From positions 1 through 33,732 of IMG/VR virus record IMGVR_UViG_3300047325_000009: a stretch of DNA of 33,732 nucleotides; one strand, written 5' to 3'. The notes under the pieces are model-generated. The model worked only from the letters and a program-made list of their open reading frames with translations, made no database searches and had not been told where the DNA came from. Position 1 is the stretch's first letter. Every line of letters begins with the position of its first letter. Positions 4,674 to 31,050 of the stretch are shown here, piece after piece. The position numbers and the translations under genes were made by a program. This DNA is from a virus.

Positions 4674-4790
4674 GAGGCATTGACCATCAATACGTGGGCC
4701 GGATTAGACCGGCGCGCCTAAGTTCCCGCATCTGAGAACGCGTTAGCTTCGTTTTATGCTGCGCGCTCGGACGCTACAGGTCAACGGGTA

Positions 4791-18489: not shown

Positions 18490-21400
18490 GTGGCCGGCTC
18501 GACCTCAATCCAGAACTCGTTTGTTGCAGGCGAGCTAAGCCCGTCGATTTTCGGTCGCACGGATCTCAATAAATATCATTCCGGCGCGTCCACGATGCGC
18601 AATCTCTTCGTCAATTATCGCGGCGGCGCGTCTTCTCGCGCGGGCCTCGCTTATGTCGGAACGTGCAAGCAATCCGGCACAGGATTGCCCCCGCGCGACA
18701 TCCCGTTTCAGTTTTCCGTCACGCAGGGCTATGTGTTGGAGTTCGGCGATCAGTATATGCGCGTGAAGTCGAACGGCGCGTATGTGATTGAGGCGACCGA
18801 GGCCATCACGAGCGCCACGCAAGCCAACCCGGCCGTGATCGGCATTGCAGCGCACGGCTATTCCGCAGGCGACTGGATTTTCATCACCGGCATGCTCGGG
18901 ATGACGAATTTCAACGGACTGACCTGGATCGTCAATACGGTGCCCGATGCCAACCATGTGACGCTGACAGACCTGTTCGGCAACGTGGTGTCGTCGGGTC
19001 TGTTCAATGCCTACACCTCGGGCGGCACGGCGGCGCGGATCTATACCGTGGTCTCGCCCTATGCTGCCGTGGATATACCCTATCTCAAATATACGCAATC
19101 GGCCGATACGATGACGCTGTGCTGCGTCAATCAGGCGACGCGGTTTGAGTATCCGTCCTATGAGCTTGTGCGCAACGGCAACACGGCATGGGTATTCACG
19201 GCCGATACGTTCCAGTCGGTTATCGCGGCGCCGACGATCACAAGCGTAGTCGCCAACCATTCCACGACGCTCAGCACCTATTACGCTTATGGCGTGACGG
19301 CGATCGACAAGACGACAGGCGAAGAAAGCGTCGTGTCGAACACGGTCTCGGTGCAGAACAACGATATCTCGATCAACGCCGGTTCGAATGTCATCACCTG
19401 GACGCCGGTACCGAACGCGGTCAGTTACAACATTTATGGGTCAACGCCGTCTTACTCGGTCGATATCCCGGTTGGTGCCGATTTCGGTTATCTGGGATCG
19501 GCTGTCGGCCTGAGTTTTACAGACACCAATATCGTTGCCGATTTCACGACCGTTCCGCCACTGCATCAGAACCCGTTCGCGCGCAATCAGGTACTGACTG
19601 TGCCCGTACTGGTCGGAGGCACGGGCATCACGGGCACGATCACGTTCTCGTTCTCTAGCGCGACCGGTAGCGGGTTTATTGCGGAAGCTGTCGTCATCGG
19701 CGGCGTGCTTGAAGCAGTCATCGTCGTGAATGGCGGCCAGAACTACGTGCTCGGTACCGACACGCTGACATTGACGGGCACATGGACGACGGCGCCAAGC
19801 GTGACCTACACGACCGGTCCGGCGAGCGGCACCTATCCTGCGGTCGCGGCGTACTATCAGGAGCGGCGCGTTTATGCGAGCACGCTCAACAATCCCGATA
19901 CGTATTTCATGAGCCAGCCGGGCGCGTTCGCGAATTTCGATAGCGCCACCCCGACCGTGGATAACGACGCGATCACCGGAACGCCATGGGCGCAGCAGGT
20001 GAATGGTATCCAGTTTATGGTGCCGATGCCTGGCGGCCTCGTGGTGCTGACAGGCAAAGGGGCGTGGCAGGTCAATGGCGGCAACTCGGCCGCGATCACG
20101 CCGGCCGATCAGGATGCCAATCCGCAAGCGTACAACGGCTGTAACAACATCGTGCCACCGATCACGATCAATTACGACATTCTTTATGTGCAGTCGAAGG
20201 GCTCCATCGTCCGCGATCTGGCCTATAATTTCTTCGTCAACATCTACACCGGCACCGATTTAACTGTACTGTCGAACCATCTGTTTACCGACCATACGAT
20301 CGTGCAATGGGCCTTTTCGGAGGAGCCTTATAAGATCGTGTGGGCCGTTCGCGACGACGGCATCCTGTTGAGCCTGACCTACCTCAAAGAACAGGATGTT
20401 TATGCGTGGGCACGGCACGACACGAACGGGCTCGTTGTAGGCGTTACCGTTGTGACGGAACCGCCTGTCGATGCAGTTTACGTTATTGTCAAGCGCTATA
20501 TTCAGGGCGGTTGGAGGTATTATTCCGAGCGCATGGACAATCGGTCATGGACAACGGCCGAAACCTGCGTTTGCTCGGACGCGTGTTTGCAATTGCCAAT
20601 GAACACCCCGAATGCAGCGCTGACGCCGAGCGCCATCGGCAACACGAACAACATTACTGGCGTCAATATCGTTTATGGCGGTTCTGGCTACACGAGCCCG
20701 ACCGTGATCGTGCTGGACCCAACAGATAGCGGGACTGGTGCCACGTTCTCGGCAACCGTCGTCGGCGGGGTGATAACGGCGATCACTCCAGTAACGAGCG
20801 GACAGAACTACGCGCCCGGCTCGGCAATCGTGATTTCCGATCCGACAGGTTCGGGCGCAATTGCTCAAGCGCTCGTGACGAACTACGTGACGTTCACCGC
20901 CAGCACGTCCGTGTTCACGAGCGCGAACATCGGCGACGTGATCCGGGTCGATGGGGGTAACGCGACTGTAACCAGTTATGTGAGCGGGACGCAGGTGGTC
21001 GGCAATGTCACGATCCCGTTGACGGAGACATTGCAGAACAATCCGAACAATCAACCGGTTCCTGCTGCCGCTGGAAACTGGACGATCACGACGCCGGCAT
21101 CTCAAGTGAGCGGCCTCAACCACCTAGAGGGCCAGACGGTTTGCATCTTGGCTGACGGCAGCGTGGTCGATAATCAGACCGTCGTGAATGGGACGGTGAC
21201 TCTCCCGCGCGCCTATTCGGCCGTGACGGTCGGCTTGCCCTATACCTGCCAGTTGCAGACGATGTATTTTGATCCACCGGGGCAGCCTTCGACGCTTTCG
21301 ACGCGCCGCAAACTGATCAATTCCGTTGGCATTATCATGGAGGCCACGCGCGGCATTCAGACTGGGTCAAACCAGCCCGACGCCAGCACGCAGCCCAATG

Positions 21401-21612: not shown

Positions 21613-22091
21613 TGCCTTGCATCGAAATCATCCCAGCCGTAGCGGATCACGTCCGCGCCTTGGGCATCTCCATGCGTGCGGCGGATCAAGCGGAGATCCG
21701 GGGTTTCGGTCTTGTGCCGCACCGAACGCTATGGGTCTCTTACCGCCATTCTCTTATGCGGCGGACGGCGCTGGTTGATGGCGAAGTGGCGGCGATGTGG
21801 GGTGTCACTGGGGCGCCGCTTGGACGCGCGGGACGTCCGTGGCTGCTGACCGGGCCTGCCTGCGACCGCGTTTCGCCAATCCGGTTTGCGCGGATCTACC
21901 GGGATGAGGCGGTTTCGATGCTGGGGCTATTTCCGGCATTGGAGAACATCGTGGATTCAAGTTACTATGGCGCCGTCCGCATGTTGTGTCTCGCCGGCTT
22001 CACCGTACACGATCCTGTGCCAATGGGCGTAGACGGCAAATGCTACAGCCGGTTTGAGATGCGCGTTAGAGAGGCCGCCGAATGTTTGTGA
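21612..22091 (+). CDS. internal virion protein A-like (gp13-like)
   Basis: 159 residues, start overlapping the nozzle stop (TAATG). MPCIEIIPAVADHVRALGIS, MRAADQAEIRGFG, TLWVSYRHSLMRRTALVDGE and PVPMGVDGKCYSRFEMRV form a GNAT-like fold that is common to the gp13 / internal virion protein A group of podophages, though the catalytic features of acetyltransferases are weak. The position straight after the tail nozzle agrees. It may help assembly of the internal core rather than act as an enzyme. Confidence 0.7.
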   Translation: MPCIEIIPAVADHVRALGISMRAADQAEIRGFGLVPHRTLWVSYRHSLMRRTALVDGEVAAMWGVTGAPLGRAGRPWLLTGPACDRVSPIRFARIYRDEAVSMLGLFPALENIVDSSYYGAVRMLCLAGFTVHDPVPMGVDGKCYSRFEMRVREAAECL

Positions 22092-22618
22092 TTTTCGCTC
22101 TACCGCGCAGCCGCACCGCATGGCTTTCCACGTTCCTGACGCACAAGGGCTGGACATGCCATCACGATCTGGTGGCGAAATGCGCGGACATGATGGAAAT
22201 CGAGACGGCGCTGCGGATGCCGCGCGTCGGTCTGGCCGATACCGGCGCCGCACATGGATGGCGCGTTATCCGTGCGGCATTCCCTGCGGCTCAGTTCATC
22301 ACGGTTCGTCGGCACCTTGATAATGTCAAGGAAAGCCTCGCAGGCCAGGGCATCGATCCGTCATGGGCGGATCTTCATCGGTTGAACCACAAGCTTGACG
22401 AGATTGAGGCGCAGGCGGGCACGATCCGGCTGGAATATGGCAATCTCAGTCGAGAAGATGCCATGCGGACGCTGGTCGAGCGCACGGGCCAGGAATTTGA
22501 CCGCGAGCGATGGCTGATGATGCGGTCTTTGAACATCCAGATCGATATGCCGCAGCGCTTGGCGATACTGGCGATGAATCGCGAACGACTGTCGGCATTG
22601 AAACAGGCAGTCGCATGA
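22082..22618 (+). CDS. sulfotransferase-like P-loop protein
   Basis: 178 residues, overlapping its neighbour by 10 nt upstream and by ATGA downstream. The N-terminus MFVIFALPRSRTAWLSTFLT contains the 5'-phosphosulfate-binding loop typical of PAPS-dependent sulfotransferases (LPRSRTAWLS). A second segment FITVRRHLDNVKESLAGQGI (around 80) fits the 3'-phosphate-binding region. Sulfotransferases move sulfate from PAPS to hydroxyls or amines. It is shorter than most family members and lies among virion genes, so it could modify a host surface sugar or a phage protein. Similar genes exist in the same place in other podophages; their substrate is unknown. Confidence 0.7.
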   Translation: MFVIFALPRSRTAWLSTFLTHKGWTCHHDLVAKCADMMEIETALRMPRVGLADTGAAHGWRVIRAAFPAAQFITVRRHLDNVKESLAGQGIDPSWADLHRLNHKLDEIEAQAGTIRLEYGNLSREDAMRTLVERTGQEFDRERWLMMRSLNIQIDMPQRLAILAMNRERLSALKQAVA

Positions 22619-23076
22619 TCCGCATCGCCCAAGAAAAATGGGACACATTCTATCCTGACTGCATGGGGTGCCTGTCCGAGCACAAGGACGAGGTGGGCGC
22701 CGACGACGGCTATCCGTTTGATCCGGATATCGATCAGGCGGCGGCGATGTCTGACCATAATATTTCGCAGATCGTCACGGCGCGGGCCGGCAACAGCCTT
22801 GTGGGCTATTGCGTGTTCATGATCAGCCCGTCTCTGGTCAGCCGAGATGTCATCTCGGGCGTCATGGGGCCGTGGTACGTGCGAGCTGATTATCGCGGCA
22901 GCACCGTGACGTATCGCCTGTTCGCCGAATCGCTGCGGCTGATGAAGGAGCGGGGCGTTCGGTCGGTTTATCCGCATCACTGGTTCAAGGGCGACAGTCC
23001 GAAAGCGGCGCGGCTATTCGAGCACTTCGGAGCCAAGCCGTGCGAACTGGTTTATCATCTGGACCTGGGAGCATAA
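22615..23076 (+). CDS. GNAT-family acetyltransferase-like protein
   Basis: 153 residues, coupled by ATGA to the sulfotransferase-like gene. IVTARAGNSLVGYCVFMISP and GVMGPWYVRADYRGSTVTYR, then LFAESLRLMKERGVRSVYPH and KAARLFEHFGAKPCELVYHL follow the GNAT layout: central strands, a beta-bulge with an acetyl-CoA loop (ADYRGSTVTYRL, a weak Q/R-x-x-G-x-G/A variant), and a C-terminal F..FGA strand pair. It is found next to sulfotransferase-like genes in related podophages. The substrate is unknown; modification of virion or host envelope targets is conceivable. Confidence 0.7.
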   Translation: MIRIAQEKWDTFYPDCMGCLSEHKDEVGADDGYPFDPDIDQAAAMSDHNISQIVTARAGNSLVGYCVFMISPSLVSRDVISGVMGPWYVRADYRGSTVTYRLFAESLRLMKERGVRSVYPHHWFKGDSPKAARLFEHFGAKPCELVYHLDLGA

Positions 23077-23638: not shown

Positions 23639-26001
23639 TGCCAGGCGCTCGTCCCGACGTGGCTTATAATCCCGATCCGACAGTCTCGCCTGAGACTGGC
23701 GCGGGTAACGACATGCTGAACGTCCGCGCCACACCGGATGATTTCGGTGGCGAGACCGCTCAGGCGATCCAGGGTGTCGGACAGACGCTCGGCAAGGTAT
23801 CGGATCAGGTCCAAGACACGGTTCTGCGCCAGCAGGGCATGATCAATGAGACGATGGCGACCAATGGCGAGACGCAATTAGCGTTGCAGCATGGCGCCGT
23901 CATGAATGATCTTCGGCAGAAAGAGGGTCTGGATGCCGCCGCAGCTCTTCCCGGCGCGCTTGAACAAATAACGGCGGCTCGCCAGAACATTGCGGCCACG
24001 ATGCCGAACCCGGCCGCTCGACGAGCTTTCGATATGTTGGCCGCGCGGCGCGAAGCGAACGCGATCACAGACGCTAACTCGTATGCTGCGGGCCAGATCA
24101 AGCAAGCCAATATCAACAGCGCCCATGCGACGGTGCAGAACGCCATTTCGAGCGCGGGTCAGATCGAGGTCGCGCAGGATGATACGCGTTTCAATGACAG
24201 CCTGCATGACATTCAATTCGGCGTAACGCGGCAGCTACAGGCGCGCGGTTACGGCGATTCGTCGGGCATGACGCAAGATCCCGAAACGGGCGCGGTTTCG
24301 TTCGATGAGACACAACCGGCAGGACAGGCGGCATCCCAGGTCTATAAGCAGGCCATGGGCGAGGCGACGTCGGCCGCCTGGGAGAACCGGTTCAAGGTTC
24401 TGGCTGATCAGAACGTGCTGTCTGCATATGGGAAGTATCAGCAAAGCCGCGACCAGATCCCCGGCGATGCACAGGTCAAGCTTGATCAGTTCTTCACGCC
24501 CAAGGTTCGGGATGCGCAAGCATCAAGCACGGCTCAAGGCGTGCTGGGTATCGTGGATCAGGCGCATACCGCGCAGTATGGCGCGGCACCATCCAAGTCG
24601 CTGTTCGATGCGATTTCGGGTCAGGAAAGCGGCGGAAATCCGAACGTCGGAACGTCGGTTGATGGCGCCCATGGTCAGATGCAGATCACGCCAGCCACGT
24701 TTGCTCAGTATGCGCAGCCTGGCGAGAACATCGACAATCCGAAGGACAACGCAGCAGTCGGCCAGCGCATCCTGTCCGACTATTCCGCGCGCTATAACGG
24801 CGACCCGGCGCGTATTGCCGTAGCGTATTTCTCGGGGCCCGGCAACGTCGCGCCGGCCGGAAGCCCGACGCCGTATTTGCAGGATCTGAAAGACGGCAAC
24901 GGTCAGAGCGTGTCGGGATATGTCTCGGGCGTGATGGCGCGGCTTGGGCCGAACGCGGGATATCAGCCCCCGGCGCCCGCCCCAGGAACGCCGCCTCCGC
25001 AATCGCCGCCAATCAGTCAGGCGGATTACTATCGGACGAATTACACCGAGATCGGCGATCTGGCGAGAACGCGCGCCCAAATCGAACATCCAGATGATCC
25101 GGCTTATGCCGAGACTGTAGTTGCTCGCACTTATCAGCAGATTAATACGGTCATTAAGGCGCAAGAGTTGAGAGACCGTGCCGATAGCGATCTGGTGCAT
25201 AACGCGCTTTTGCCAGACCCGACGACGGGGCAGTATCCGACGACGCTGGCGGCACTCACGGCTAACCCTGCGGTCAAGGACGCTTGGGGCCGGATGCAGA
25301 TCAACAACCCGATCGCGGCACAGGGTATCCAGACGCATCTGCTGACGGCGCTTAGTCGTGAAGATCCAACGGCCAAGGAATATGGGCCTGGGTTTGCGGA
25401 TTTGTTGAAGCGCGTCGGTGCGCCGATGACAGACCCCGACCGCGTTTATGATCCGACTCCGCTCATGGATTTGCAGAAATACGGCCTAACGTTCAAGGGT
25501 TATACTGCGCTGCAAGACCAGATCAAACTGCGCGAGACGGATCATCCGTTCACGTTGCAGCAGAACGCGTTTCTTGACGGCGCCAAGCAGCAGATCATGG
25601 GCGGTACTGGCGGCATGGGCGATCCCAAGGGAAAGCAGCAGTATTCCGCGTTCCTGAACGACGTGATGCCTGCCATTGCGGCCGCACAGAAAAACGGCAT
25701 CACGGCGTCTCAGATGTTTGATCCGAAGGACCCTAACTATGTCGGCAAGAATCTGTCGAACTTTGTACGCCCGATGAGCCAGTGGTATGCTGACACGATG
25801 AACGCCGGACCCGCTGCCGCGACGACTGCGCCCACGAGCGCGCCGATTGCCCGAGCCCCACAGCCGCCGCAGGGGGTGCCTGCTGGCGCGATGTACAGCC
25901 CGAGCCGCAATCAGTGGCGCGCTAGCACGGGTGTGATCTATGGGCCGGATGGTAAGCCGGTTTCCGATGCGAGCAAGCCAACCGTACCGATGGCGCAATA
26001 A
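23638..26001 (+). CDS. internal virion protein with lytic transglycosylase domain
   Basis: 787 residues. The N-terminal 300 residues are helical (ETAQAIQGVGQTLGKVSDQV). A soluble lytic transglycosylase domain follows: LFDAISGQESGGNPNVGT with the presumed catalytic Glu330, GAHGQMQITPATFAQYAQ, DYSARYNGDPARIAVAYFSG. It would cleave peptidoglycan glycan strands to let the ejection apparatus through the cell wall. A Pro-rich linker (APAPGTPPPQSPP, near 443) leads to a helical C-terminal half. It corresponds to the gp15/gp16 group of T7-like core proteins, placed between gp14-like and the giant core protein. Confidence 0.85.
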   Translation: MPGARPDVAYNPDPTVSPETGAGNDMLNVRATPDDFGGETAQAIQGVGQTLGKVSDQVQDTVLRQQGMINETMATNGETQLALQHGAVMNDLRQKEGLDAAAALPGALEQITAARQNIAATMPNPAARRAFDMLAARREANAITDANSYAAGQIKQANINSAHATVQNAISSAGQIEVAQDDTRFNDSLHDIQFGVTRQLQARGYGDSSGMTQDPETGAVSFDETQPAGQAASQVYKQAMGEATSAAWENRFKVLADQNVLSAYGKYQQSRDQIPGDAQVKLDQFFTPKVRDAQASSTAQGVLGIVDQAHTAQYGAAPSKSLFDAISGQESGGNPNVGTSVDGAHGQMQITPATFAQYAQPGENIDNPKDNAAVGQRILSDYSARYNGDPARIAVAYFSGPGNVAPAGSPTPYLQDLKDGNGQSVSGYVSGVMARLGPNAGYQPPAPAPGTPPPQSPPISQADYYRTNYTEIGDLARTRAQIEHPDDPAYAETVVARTYQQINTVIKAQELRDRADSDLVHNALLPDPTTGQYPTTLAALTANPAVKDAWGRMQINNPIAAQGIQTHLLTALSREDPTAKEYGPGFADLLKRVGAPMTDPDRVYDPTPLMDLQKYGLTFKGYTALQDQIKLRETDHPFTLQQNAFLDGAKQQIMGGTGGMGDPKGKQQYSAFLNDVMPAIAAAQKNGITASQMFDPKDPNYVGKNLSNFVRPMSQWYADTMNAGPAAATTAPTSAPIARAPQPPQGVPAGAMYSPSRNQWRASTGVIYGPDGKPVSDASKPTVPMAQ

Positions 26002-29000
26002 TGGCGGCCGATCCGACTGACGATTGGCTTTCGCCTGGCGCTCCCATGCCTGCGCCGAGTGTGGACCTGACCGCACCGCAGACCACGGGCACGCCTGCTG
26101 CTGATGCTTCGTTGCCTGCGCCTGATCCTGATGCACCTCCTGCGCCTGATTTCGATGGTGCAGTGTCGGTTCAGCCGACGCCCGCGCCGGTCAAGACGCC
26201 CGCTGCGCCTGCCGACGATTGGATCAACCCCGGCGATCCGATCAAGCCGCAGTCGGGCATTGCGACGTTTTTCCGTGGGCTGACCGCATCCGCTGGGGAG
26301 GCTCAAGCTGCCGAAGCGGGCACAACAGTATCGCCCGAGCAACAGGCGCAGGATCAGCAGGCGTTCACGGACGTTGCGCGTCATACGGTTGTCGGTCGTA
26401 TTTTTACCGCTATGGGAGCGTCTGTCGTTGGCGATTTCAGCTCGGCAAAAATTGGAGCATCGCCAGAATTTGACAACGCAATGCGTCAAATGGGGCTTTA
26501 TAACGATTACGCCAAAGGCGATGCGTCCATTTTAAAGACGTTCTATCAATCTCTGTTCAGTTCGGCGATTGCCTCAGCGGACATTTTTAGCACGGCGTTC
26601 CAAGCGGGAGCTGGTGCAGCGGGTGCAGCCGTAGGCCAGACCGCGCAAGAACTCGGTGTTCCGAACGCTCAAAAACTCGGCCAGGACATTTCCGGCGCGA
26701 TCATGAACGAGGCCATGTCTCCGTCCATGGGACACATGGCGCCGCATCCGGTCACGCTCGATATCGCCGCCCATGACGCAAAAGTGTTCGAGAGCGAGGG
26801 CGCCTACATGGGCACCGAGCCGGGCACGAACGAACCGGCGCGACTGGCTGCGTCTAGCATTGTTCAGTCGAGCAGTGCAGAGCCCCCCGCTGAGGCAGCA
26901 GTTGCGCCGGAACCTACCGCACCCAGCGTGTCGGACATCGCGCGCCAGATCGCGCCCGATACGTTCAAGCAGTACGACAATCTGACGGCCCAGCGCGATC
27001 AGTTGCGCGGCGTGGTCGAAGGTCGCGTGTCGGATGCGCAGGACGAGGTTGCCGACCAGTTCAAGGAACGGCTTGAACCGGCGCAGCAACAGGTGGACGA
27101 TCTCCAGCGTCAATTGGATGGTTTCGAGAAGGCCGGTAACGACAAGAAGGCCGCGCTGTTCCGTGGCAGGCTCGACAAGGCGCAGTCGGTCCTGGACGGC
27201 ATCAATTCGGACTTGAGTGACGCTCAGGATGCGGCGGCGGCGAAGGTGCGCGCGGACGCTGCTGCCGAGTTGCTGGATATCCATCATCGGTTGGCCGATC
27301 TGGCACCAGATCTGTCGGCGGCGACGCGCGCTGCGGATGAACATGCGAACGGCGGGGCGCCGTTGCCATCGGCTGAACAGGTAGAAAATAGCCCGTCAAA
27401 TAATTTGGCAGAAGCTCAGCCAATTAATTTGCCAAATTACGAAAATTCGTCGAAACCCGTTGAAAACGCTAACAATTTAATTGGCAGTGAACCGTCAAAT
27501 AATTTGGCAGGCAAATTGTCAAATTCCGCAGAAACCGTACTCGGCCAGGACACCACGCACACGCCCATCGAGCAGCAGCGCGCCAACATCGTTGCGGACG
27601 TGACCAAGAAGCTAGACGCTATCGGTCGCCCGGCCGACGAGGCGCTGGCAAATGCCGAGATGGTTGCTGCACACTACGAAGCCAAGGCGGCGCTCTATAA
27701 TGGCACCAAGGGTTCGGCTGAGGATCTGTACAAAGCCGAGATGCCGGATATCGCTACGGCAGAGAAAGGCGGTCCGCGCGGCGAAGCGAACGGCAAGATG
27801 GTGTTCCGCAATGCCAGAAACACGCTGACAATGTTCGCCAAGGCCGATGCCAGCACCTTTATGCACGAGATGGCTCATAACTGGCTTGAGCAAATGATGA
27901 AGGACGCCGCTGACGATGCAGCGCCGGAATCGCTCAAGGCCGATGCCGATGCCGTGCGAAAGTGGATCGGCCTCAAAGAAGGTGCCAAAATCACCAAGGC
28001 ACCCCATGAGCGGTTCGCGCGCGGGTTCGAGACCTATCTGATGGAAGGTCGGGCGCCGTCGCAGAAACTTGCTGGCGTCTTTGCTCAATTCAAGAATTGG
28101 CTGACCAAGATATACGGCACTGTCAATAAGATCGGCCGTCCGATTTCTGATGATATCCGGGGAGTTTTTGACAGGCTCCTCGTTCATGCTCCAGAGCGCA
28201 CCGTCATCGCGCCCGAGGGTGAGGTTGGGCGCTCGTTCGCAGATCTGCATGAGACGGATGCCGAGACGACGCCGCCCGAGAAAGCACATGAGGCCGCTAC
28301 AGTCGTTCGCTCCGAGCAGAACGCCATTATCAACCATGCCGCACCGGAGGATTTGAATGCCGTCGTTGAAAGAACTTCAGACGCATCTGGCGGACGCGAA
28401 GCAACGGGTGAAGAATCTGACCGTGATGCAAATGCGGCCGGGACAGGAACCGGAGAAGGTGGCTCTCCTGCGGAACCTGGAACGGTCGGCCCGCGCGGAG
28501 GTGAAGCTGCGCCGGATGGCGGTGGAGCACGAGGAGAAATCGCCACAGCAGAGCGCCCAGCCGAAGCCGTAAGCCCTGCGACCGTCATCAACAACGGCAA
28601 GAAGTTTGAAAACAAGGCAGGAAACATCCGCCTTGACCTGCTGAATACGACAGACGATATCGACGCCGCCATTCATGAAATGTCCGACGAAAACGATGGC
28701 TTTATGTCGGAGCGACGTGGCGTCGTCTCGATTGGGCAAACGATGGATCTAGCCGACGCGGCCGGCGTCGATACGGCCTGGATCAATCGCGAGGAATTGG
28801 GCAAAGCCTACAACGCGCATCAGATCGCGGCCTTGACCAAGATCATGATCCAAACCGCGAAAGACGTGGTCGAAAAAGCACAATCCGGCGTGTTGGCGGA
28901 TTACCTGGAAGCGCGCGAACGGCTCAAGATGATTCAGGCGCGCGTGGCCGGCGCCACGGCAGAAGCGGGCCGAGCGCTGAATATTTTCAACCATTTGCGT

Positions 29001-30974
29001 CGGATTGAGGGCGGCGATGAAGCAACGGTGCTGGGACAGTTCCTCAAGGACGAGGACAAGGGCAGAACCTTATTTCAGGCCGAAGATGAGATGCGCAAGG
29101 TCGCCACGATGCAGACTTCCGGACAGGCTGCGCGGCTGGTCCACCAATCGGCGACGGGCGGTCTCAAAGCCGCCATCCTCGAATACTACATCAATGCCCT
29201 GATTTCCGGCCCGATAACCCATTTCCGCTATTCGGTCGGCAACACGGTCGCGGCCCTGTGGACGCCGCTCGTGCAGATCCCCATTGCTGCCGGCGTCGGC
29301 AAACTGGCCGAGCTCCATGCCGGAGAACCTATCGAGCGTGTGCGTCTAGGCGAGGCTGGCGCGCAACTCTACGCGATGGGCCGGGGTTCGCGGGAGGGCA
29401 TCAAGGCGGCGGTCGAGGCTTGGAAGAACGGCTTCTCCCCAGCGCTGCCAGGTGAACGCGTCTCGGCTCATTTCGCCGACGCTCCGGTGCGCGCGATTCC
29501 CGGCAAGATCGGCGAGGTTCTGAACTACCCGAGCAAATCTGTCTCGGCCATCCATTCGTTTTTCAAATCGCTCCGGTACGCGCAGAATATCGCAGGTGCC
29601 GCTTACCGCATGGCGAGCGAGGAAGGGCTAGAGGGCGATGCGTTTGACCAGCGCGTTGCTGAACTGACGATGAGCCCGACGCCCGAGACGATGGCGGCTC
29701 TGCAAGAGAAAATGCGGCTTGGCGATGACCTGACGCCGCAGGAACAGATGATGCGGAACGCGTCGGCTGAGGCGATGCGCGAGTTGTATATGGCGCCCAC
29801 GGAATACAACAGCCTCGCCGGCATGTACAGCCGATGGGCCAATGGCCCCGGTGTTGCGCCGTTGATCGGTAAAATCCTGGTCCCGTTCATGAAGATCGGT
29901 TCCGAGATTACGCACAACGCATTCATGGAACAGACTCCGCTTGGCCTGCTGAATAAGGGTATCCGAGATAACGCGCTCGGTCGTAACGGCGAAGTGGCCC
30001 GCGATATGCAGCTAGCCAGGGTTGCCGGTGGCGTTGCGCTTATGGGCGTAACCAGCACGCTCGTCCTTGAGGGCATGGCGACCGGCGATGGCCCTTCAGA
30101 TCCAGCGAAACGTGCAGTGTGGTTGCTGTCCCATAAACCAAATTCGATTCAGATCGGTGACATTACGCTGCCATACCAAGGCTTGGGCTCGCTCGGCATG
30201 CTCATGCGGTTCAGCGCAAACACCGTTGAAACCGCGCGAGGATGGGGAGACGAGCACGGCAATAAACTTGCCTCGACGTTCTTTGGTATGAGCAAAGCCA
30301 TTCTTGATGAGAATTTCATGCGCGGTTTGCATGACGCGCTGGATGCGATTTACGCTCCAGACCGGAATCTGGAACGATGGGTGGAAAACTTTGCTACGAA
30401 CTGGCTGCCGTTCTCTGTGGGCATGTCCCAAGTCGCTCGCGCCATCGATCCCGACCAGCGTGTTACTGACGGCATCTTTGAGCAGGCCGCATCCAAAGTC
30501 CCGCTCCTATCCGAAACTCTCCAGCCCCGTCGCGACGTGTTCGGCCAGCCAATCCTGAACGGTTCCAGCGTGGCGCAATACGCCCATGATCCAGTCGTAC
30601 AGCGCATGAATGCGCTCGATATGGGCGTGGGGCGTCTGGAGAAGAAAATCCGTGGCGTGGCGCTGACCGAGGATCAGTATGATGATTTCTCGAACGTCGC
30701 CGGCAAACTGGCGAAGATGCGGCTTGATGCTCTAGTGCAGCCAGGGTTTGAGCAGATTCCAGCGCAGATGCAGATCAACAAGATTGCGGACGTGATCCGG
30801 GATAGCCGCCACCTCGCACGGCAGCAGATGATCGCGAAATATCCAGACATCGCCGCGCAGGCCACGAGCGCCAAGATGCTCAAGAAATACGGGGCCATTG
30901 CTCCCGAGGGTCCGCAGTCCCGCACGGTTGAGGATACGGATGCAACGGGGCAGGATGCGGGTGAGACGGAATAA
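26001..30974 (+). CDS. giant internal virion protein with HExxH motif
   Basis: 1657 residues. N-terminal Pro-rich tract; a coiled coil at about 345-430 (FKERLEPAQQQVDDLQRQLD); an Asn-rich stretch at 465-510; then TFMHEMAHNWLEQMM with HEMAH at 622-626, followed by HERFARGFETYLMEGRAPSQ near 670. This is the arrangement of zinc-metallopeptidase-like domains found in large polyvalent phage proteins. A Gly-rich region at 786-857 overlaps a nested gene. The C-terminal 750 residues are helical with amphipathic membrane-active segments (GKILVPFMKIGSEITHNAF, VAGGVALMGVTSTLVLEGMA). It probably is packaged in the capsid and ejected; the peptidase may act on itself or on host proteins. Confidence 0.8.
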   Translation: MAADPTDDWLSPGAPMPAPSVDLTAPQTTGTPAADASLPAPDPDAPPAPDFDGAVSVQPTPAPVKTPAAPADDWINPGDPIKPQSGIATFFRGLTASAGEAQAAEAGTTVSPEQQAQDQQAFTDVARHTVVGRIFTAMGASVVGDFSSAKIGASPEFDNAMRQMGLYNDYAKGDASILKTFYQSLFSSAIASADIFSTAFQAGAGAAGAAVGQTAQELGVPNAQKLGQDISGAIMNEAMSPSMGHMAPHPVTLDIAAHDAKVFESEGAYMGTEPGTNEPARLAASSIVQSSSAEPPAEAAVAPEPTAPSVSDIARQIAPDTFKQYDNLTAQRDQLRGVVEGRVSDAQDEVADQFKERLEPAQQQVDDLQRQLDGFEKAGNDKKAALFRGRLDKAQSVLDGINSDLSDAQDAAAAKVRADAAAELLDIHHRLADLAPDLSAATRAADEHANGGAPLPSAEQVENSPSNNLAEAQPINLPNYENSSKPVENANNLIGSEPSNNLAGKLSNSAETVLGQDTTHTPIEQQRANIVADVTKKLDAIGRPADEALANAEMVAAHYEAKAALYNGTKGSAEDLYKAEMPDIATAEKGGPRGEANGKMVFRNARNTLTMFAKADASTFMHEMAHNWLEQMMKDAADDAAPESLKADADAVRKWIGLKEGAKITKAPHERFARGFETYLMEGRAPSQKLAGVFAQFKNWLTKIYGTVNKIGRPISDDIRGVFDRLLVHAPERTVIAPEGEVGRSFADLHETDAETTPPEKAHEAATVVRSEQNAIINHAAPEDLNAVVERTSDASGGREATGEESDRDANAAGTGTGEGGSPAEPGTVGPRGGEAAPDGGGARGEIATAERPAEAVSPATVINNGKKFENKAGNIRLDLLNTTDDIDAAIHEMSDENDGFMSERRGVVSIGQTMDLADAAGVDTAWINREELGKAYNAHQIAALTKIMIQTAKDVVEKAQSGVLADYLEARERLKMIQARVAGATAEAGRALNIFNHLRRIEGGDEATVLGQFLKDEDKGRTLFQAEDEMRKVATMQTSGQAARLVHQSATGGLKAAILEYYINALISGPITHFRYSVGNTVAALWTPLVQIPIAAGVGKLAELHAGEPIERVRLGEAGAQLYAMGRGSREGIKAAVEAWKNGFSPALPGERVSAHFADAPVRAIPGKIGEVLNYPSKSVSAIHSFFKSLRYAQNIAGAAYRMASEEGLEGDAFDQRVAELTMSPTPETMAALQEKMRLGDDLTPQEQMMRNASAEAMRELYMAPTEYNSLAGMYSRWANGPGVAPLIGKILVPFMKIGSEITHNAFMEQTPLGLLNKGIRDNALGRNGEVARDMQLARVAGGVALMGVTSTLVLEGMATGDGPSDPAKRAVWLLSHKPNSIQIGDITLPYQGLGSLGMLMRFSANTVETARGWGDEHGNKLASTFFGMSKAILDENFMRGLHDALDAIYAPDRNLERWVENFATNWLPFSVGMSQVARAIDPDQRVTDGIFEQAASKVPLLSETLQPRRDVFGQPILNGSSVAQYAHDPVVQRMNALDMGVGRLEKKIRGVALTEDQYDDFSNVAGKLAKMRLDALVQPGFEQIPAQMQINKIADVIRDSRHLARQQMIAKYPDIAAQATSAKMLKKYGAIAPEGPQSRTVEDTDATGQDAGETE
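27393..27510. repeat. TAATTTGGCA repeats inside the giant core gene
   Basis: CCGTCAAATAATTTGGCAG occurs twice (27393-27411 and 27492-27510). Between them lie an inverted TGCCAAATTA (27430-27439) and a near copy TAATTGGCA. The whole stretch is AT-rich and encodes repeated NNLA/NNLI peptides (residues 465-510). The 10-mer TAATTTGGCA also occurs at 2090-2099 in the terL insertion. It may be only a repeat-expanded linker, or a protein-binding site. Confidence 0.6.
28357..28572 (+). CDS. nested out-of-frame gene, 71 residues
   Basis: Lies wholly within the giant core gene in another frame. A perfect GGAGG (28346-28350) precedes its ATG by six bases. The product, MPSLKELQTHLADAKQRVKN, LTVMQMRPGQEPEKVALLRN, LERSARAEVKLRRMAVEHEE, is a soluble, basic, two-helix protein with a Pro/Gln tail. 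Third codon positions in this frame are strongly G/C, as in the phage's main genes, whereas the frame of the giant gene is here a low-complexity Gly/Glu/Ala string with many A/T-ending codons. I infer that the nested frame is the older coding frame. Function unknown; a chaperone-like or regulatory role for the host protein is guesswork. Confidence 0.65.
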   Translation: MPSLKELQTHLADAKQRVKNLTVMQMRPGQEPEKVALLRNLERSARAEVKLRRMAVEHEEKSPQQSAQPKP

Positions 30975-30976
30975 GT

Positions 30977-31050
30977 TGGAGCGGACGCCCGGACTCGAAC
31001 CGGGATCATTAGTTTGGAAGACTAAGGCCCTACCATTGGACGACGCCAGC
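30977..31050 (-). tRNA. tRNA-Gly (anticodon UCC)
   Basis: The reverse complement folds as a complete 74-nt tRNA with encoded CCA. Acceptor halves GCTGGCG and CGTCCGC pair with one mismatch (3:70) and one G-U. The D arm is GTCC/GGGC with loop AATGGTA; the anticodon arm TTAGT-CTTCCAA-ACTAA gives UCC; the T arm is CCCGG-TTCGAGT-CCGGG; the discriminator is U, as for bacterial tRNA-Gly. It begins two bases after the giant core gene and is opposite in direction. It reads GGA/GGG codons, uncommon in the virion genes but used in the inserted elements. It could alternatively be an attachment-site copy of a host tRNA. Confidence 0.85.

Follow-up and report, generated by a model that had tools for sequence, protein, structure and literature searches.

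A probable small gene nested out of frame at the module junction of a giant podoviral internal virion protein gene

The lambda Rz1 gene lies in the +1 frame inside Rz, and Rz is mutationally silent where Rz1 is constrained (PMC5295617). The single-gene lysis genes of RNA phages are small +1 genes embedded in less conserved regions of rep (PMC7693330). In the podovirus T7, the large internal core proteins have a small partner, the helix-containing protein gp6.7 (PMC11784390). In this study, a 71-codon open reading frame (ORF) nested in a giant virion protein gene was compared with these systems. Like Rz1 in Rz, it is a small phage gene wholly within another, in the +1 frame of the same strand, with a tolerant outer stretch; like the RNA-phage lysis genes, it lies in a less conserved region of a large gene. 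Rz1 is a lipoprotein of the outer membrane and belongs to the lysis cassette; the nested protein, by contrast, is charged, apparently soluble, and encoded within a virion-protein gene. Unlike the lysis genes of ssRNA phages, which evolve rapidly de novo, the nested family is kept in many tailed-phage loci with one motif. The lipobox cysteine, signal sequence, and lysis cassette that mark an Rz1 o-spanin were not found for the nested gene. Its features were those of an overprinted same-strand gene: a position wholly inside the outer gene, a different frame, and selection at the protein level. With neither lipobox nor cysteine, and with a virion gene as its site, the nested gene belongs to neither the Rz1 nor the RNA-phage lysis kind; the arrangement is of a known kind, but the protein family is new. 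The unusual feature appears to be a single slot with alternative occupants. Annotation pipelines normally miss out-of-frame nested genes, and here most phages of a whole architecture keep one.

The window, which is the whole stretch of 33,732 nucleotides analysed, is a 33.7-kb linear viral record with a podovirus gene set. It encodes a head-tail adaptor of the portal type, a major head protein, a tail tubular-type protein, two small internal virion proteins, a lysozyme-like protein, and a giant protein. Two overlapping ORFs (22082–22618 and 22510–23076) are located between the internal virion protein genes, with PHROG matches to a hydrolase and an acetyltransferase. The outer giant gene (26001–30974, plus strand) encodes a protein of 1657 amino acids of the ejection/internal virion protein type. 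The N-terminal half was similar to PHROG 9880 and matched proteins of Xanthomonas phage CP2, Pseudomonas phage AF, and Bordetella phage BPP-1; the C-terminal half was similar to the internal virion protein PHROG 6651 and matched internal virion protein D of T7-like phages. A tRNA-Gly(TCC) with an encoded CCA was found on the minus strand at 30977–31050, beginning three bases past the stop of the giant gene, and could be either a working tRNA or an attachment-site remnant.

The outer protein has an HExxH zincin-like peptidase module (27801–28340, plus strand), which ends shortly 5' of the nested gene. The HExxH, here HEMAH at about 27864–27878, is conserved in the peptidase module of the homologues. 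At 28608–29387 on the plus strand lies the opening part (NKAGNIRLD...) of the C module, which resembles internal virion protein D in type. The nested gene is placed at the seam between the two halves, where the outer frame encodes a Gly/Ala/Glu/Arg-rich linker (28356–28571, plus strand) that is neutral at the protein level across the family. The outer protein is giant, multidomain, and HExxH-bearing, as are polyvalent phage proteins, and an LPD3 match was obtained in one homologue only (L080); the likeness concerns only the outer protein, and the word 'overlapping' is absent from the main text of the paper describing polyvalent proteins (PMC5512222). No LPD domain was detected in the giant protein of the window.

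The nested gene is located at 28357–28572 on the plus strand, in the +1 frame relative to the outer gene. A GGAGG Shine-Dalgarno sequence (28346–28350) is followed by a 6-nt spacer, ATTTGA, and then the ATG at 28357; the stop is TAA at 28570–28572. A TGA of the nested frame (28354–28356) abuts the ATG, so long upstream reading in this frame is excluded. The predicted product is basic, with a pI of about 10, has no cysteine, and carries the motif LERSARAEVKLR..A.EH. In the nested phase, the GC content at codon positions 1/2/3 was 0.71/0.38/0.81, as in genuine genes of this phage. For the same bases in the outer phase it was 0.79/0.71/0.38, and for the whole outer gene 0.66/0.47/0.66. The codon log-likelihood per codon was 0.19 in the nested frame and −0.01 in the outer frame, and nowhere else in the outer gene did the +1 frame outscore the outer frame as code. 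The position, ribosome binding site, start, and length given by the initial annotation were reproduced exactly. When synonymous codons were resampled with the outer protein fixed, 57% of the simulated genes had some +1 ORF that began with ATG, reached 71 codons or more, and carried a Shine-Dalgarno-like sequence, and in 19% such an ORF fell at the position of the nested gene. For a single sequence, the length and ribosome site of the nested ORF by themselves are within chance expectation; what is beyond chance is the codon signature and the conservation.

The routes to relatives were the tail tubular gene and alignments; scans with the single proteins P0001 and P0002 returned no viral relatives. 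A scan with the tail tubular protein gave 79 related loci, among which the nested protein was detected with up to 62% identity, at the same place and in the +1 frame every time. A scan with the nested-protein alignment added more relatives, the closest (L087) having 67% identity. The C module and the peptidase module were also used as queries, without the nested sequence, and these scans added 160 loci. Among 81 distinct loci with the peptidase and C modules within one ORF, the nested family (family I) was present in 69, in the +1 frame in all of them, with the motif L.RSARAEVKLR.KAL and products of 60–130 residues. The start of the nested domain lay 166–199 codons past HExxH in 24 of the 24 members measured, and its end lay within about 25 codons of the C-module motif where that motif was located among the measured members. 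In a few loci, 200–300 extra codons separated the nested gene from the C module.

The nested family was found in none of the 35 loci with the peptidase module and a different C-terminal half, and in none of the 7 loci with the C module behind a different long N-terminus. No family I match was seen outside fused ORFs in the fetched loci; these included 12 shorter ORFs for internal virion proteins that carry the C module close to their start, for which the peptidase module was absent from the fetched stretch. The nested family is therefore restricted to the fused peptidase–C-module architecture. The nested gene was absent from the named isolates CP2, AF, BPP-1, Jess A, and two Manatee Spring podoviruses, and tblastn of the nested protein or its consensus against named phages and plasmids gave no match.

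The start signals were compared across family I. An ATG was present 5' of the conserved domain and inside the ORF in 66 of the 69 members. The mean pairing energy with the anti-Shine-Dalgarno tail of 16S rRNA was −6.5 kcal/mol for the nested ATGs, versus −2.95 kcal/mol for a background of 2894 further +1 ATGs in those genes (p about 6e-17). An own start codon and an own ribosome binding site, as expected of a nested phage gene, were thus found.

Selection was estimated from 32 disjoint pairs, with each change classed by its effect in both frames. In the overlap, dN/dS was 0.50 (95% interval 0.41–0.61) for the nested frame and 0.94 (0.80–1.08) for the outer frame, an estimate possibly biased by the recovery of part of the family I members through their own sequence, although the loci of the C-module and peptidase scans were recovered by outer-frame modules. 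In the two flanks, the order was reversed, with 0.22 and 0.30 for the outer frame and 0.90 and 0.93 for the +1 frame. Substitutions in the overlap were mostly at nested third positions, and synonymous change of the outer frame was low there. Codons looked more native in the nested frame than in the outer one for 56 of the 69 members, compared with 14 of 2357 control windows (0.6%). Since the nested frame is constrained, the outer frame approximately neutral, and the flanks reversed, selection in this stretch acts on the nested reading, and the outer one is a passive linker. The low-complexity Gly/Glu character of the outer frame, which the initial annotation had contrasted with the nested product, is best read as a shadow of the nested codons and is accounted for by the neutral outer frame. 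The central proposal of that annotation, a gene nested out of frame, was supported by the constant +1 relation, strong ribosome sites, and purifying selection. Homologues that keep the outer frame and lose the nested one had been suggested as a check, and the reverse was seen in the 69 of 81 loci retaining the nested gene.

The start, ribosome site, frame, conservation, selection, and position at the fused-module junction were observed directly, and the nested ORF is very probably a genuine gene under selection. From these sequence features, we infer that it is translated by internal initiation, its own Shine-Dalgarno on the giant-protein mRNA directing synthesis of the nested protein. The product is a small, charged, and probably mostly helical protein; as judged from its sequence, it may form a helix-turn-helix hairpin. 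The overlap offers a clean test case of an inner frame under selection set against a neutral outer one.

The T7 gp6.7 gene is a separate, non-nested gene. The nested protein is likened to gp6.7 by analogy only; PHROG and PDB sequence searches showed no resemblance to gp6.7 or to other known proteins. As the nested gene lies inside an internal-virion-protein gene and a small core protein has a precedent in gp6.7 (PMC11784390), it is tentatively proposed that the nested protein may partner the giant ejection protein when the core is assembled or during ejection, either as an assembly factor or as a minor core/ejection protein in the manner of gp6.7, and that it would be produced in cis, next to the module on which it acts. 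It is possible, if somewhat unlikely, that the nested protein instead has a role apart from the outer protein, in lysis control, regulation, or counter-defence, and that the tolerant linker is mere genomic space, as for Rz1/Rz and the RNA-phage lysis genes. The neutrality of the outer frame in the overlap resembles that of the Rz stretch holding mature Rz1 (PMC5295617), and nested phage genes known so far are often lysis genes (PMC7693330). However, the nested proteins are charged and without an evident transmembrane segment or lipoprotein signal, and the family is strictly tied to the single fused architecture. The nested protein also gave no match to Pfam, PHROG, NCBIfam, or PDB sequences. 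The locus points to a small product, belonging to no Pfam, PHROG, or NCBIfam family, that many podoviruses encode within their ejection-protein gene.

Fused loci without family I were also inspected. There were 12 such loci, and in 10 of them the slot was occupied by another +1 ORF. Nine belonged to family II (RR.LLD.R.KA...P.LP...A..A.D.ADVALG.QDA), found at 19018–19287 of L078, 14519–14782 of L079, and 19948–20160 of L004, and also in L113, L118, L124, L126, L151, and L153. The tenth, at 4783–4998 of L145, was a third, unrelated-looking +1 ORF (MPRKRAKSSQPVS...) with a ribosome site. A ribosome-site-like sequence preceded a possible start in all 10, and the nested codons were native-looking in 9 of the 10, the exception being L151. 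Families I and II look alike, but an hhalign profile comparison (probability 2.8%, E value 0.016) did not establish their homology, and family II is at most possibly a far relative of family I. Two loci with both modules and a short linker (L065 and L218) had no nested gene, which indicates that it is dispensable for some phages of the fused architecture. A broader and quite doubtful reading is that the seam would be a conserved slot for overprinted genes, holding at least two and perhaps three unrelated +1 proteins, and that it would be maintained because the small protein has to be synthesised in cis, next to the C module as it emerges, for the assembly or protection of the giant ejection protein.

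Small inhibitors paired with an enzyme are common in general. Zincin modules occur in phage polyvalent proteins (PMC5512222), and the family I domain follows HExxH at the narrow distance given above. The nested protein could thus be an inhibitor or pro-segment-like regulator of the adjoining HExxH module that silences the peptidase in the producing cell. This is improbable: the nested family is missing from the 35 loci where the peptidase module is joined to another C-terminal half, and family II loci have about 200 more residues between the peptidase and the nested ORF.

Programmed +1 frameshifting, by which the outer gene would yield a shortened N-half ending in a new tail, would agree with the +1 relation common to all members; it is very unlikely given the own ATG, the strong ribosome site, and the TGA abutting the ATG in the window. 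The weakest readings concern a non-coding origin of the pattern. A chance open frame without a product, left open by the Gly/Ala/Glu/Arg-rich outer sequence, fits the resampling result; it is refuted at the evolutionary level by the dN/dS comparison, and with the start, ribosome site, and residues conserved in 69 loci it is hardly credible. An RNA element or second overlapping signal in place of a protein fits the low outer-frame synonymous change but is disfavoured by codon periodicity, since changes cluster at nested third positions and nested non-synonymous change is the depleted class, which leaves it a negligible chance. Three further candidates were rejected. For a stop-codon-coupled restart of the C module, no conserved in-frame start was noticed at the nested stop among the sequences read. 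A compensatory double frameshift or assembly error was at odds with independent contigs, an own start and stop, and a constant frame relation. A minus-strand gene gave negative codon scores.

Returning to a translated nested gene, its origin was considered. Engulfment of a small gene when two genes fused is slightly favoured over overprinting, because it fits the position at the fusion seam and the native codon usage of the nested frame. A neutral linker would also let a newly overprinted gene gain native codons. No unfused or stand-alone ancestor was found, and no stand-alone copy of the nested gene was seen in any search. The locus offers a route to study the fusion of two virion genes around a small gene.

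The genome scan gave two contigs only, from Paramagnetospirillum kuznetsovii (strain LBB-42, prophage L103) and one MAG, with the gene nested in both. No further copies were found in 385 genomes of the class of P. kuznetsovii or in 297 of its order. The MAG contig (L104), from a MAG labelled Patescibacteria, has a related giant gene with a nested gene and may be a mis-binned phage.
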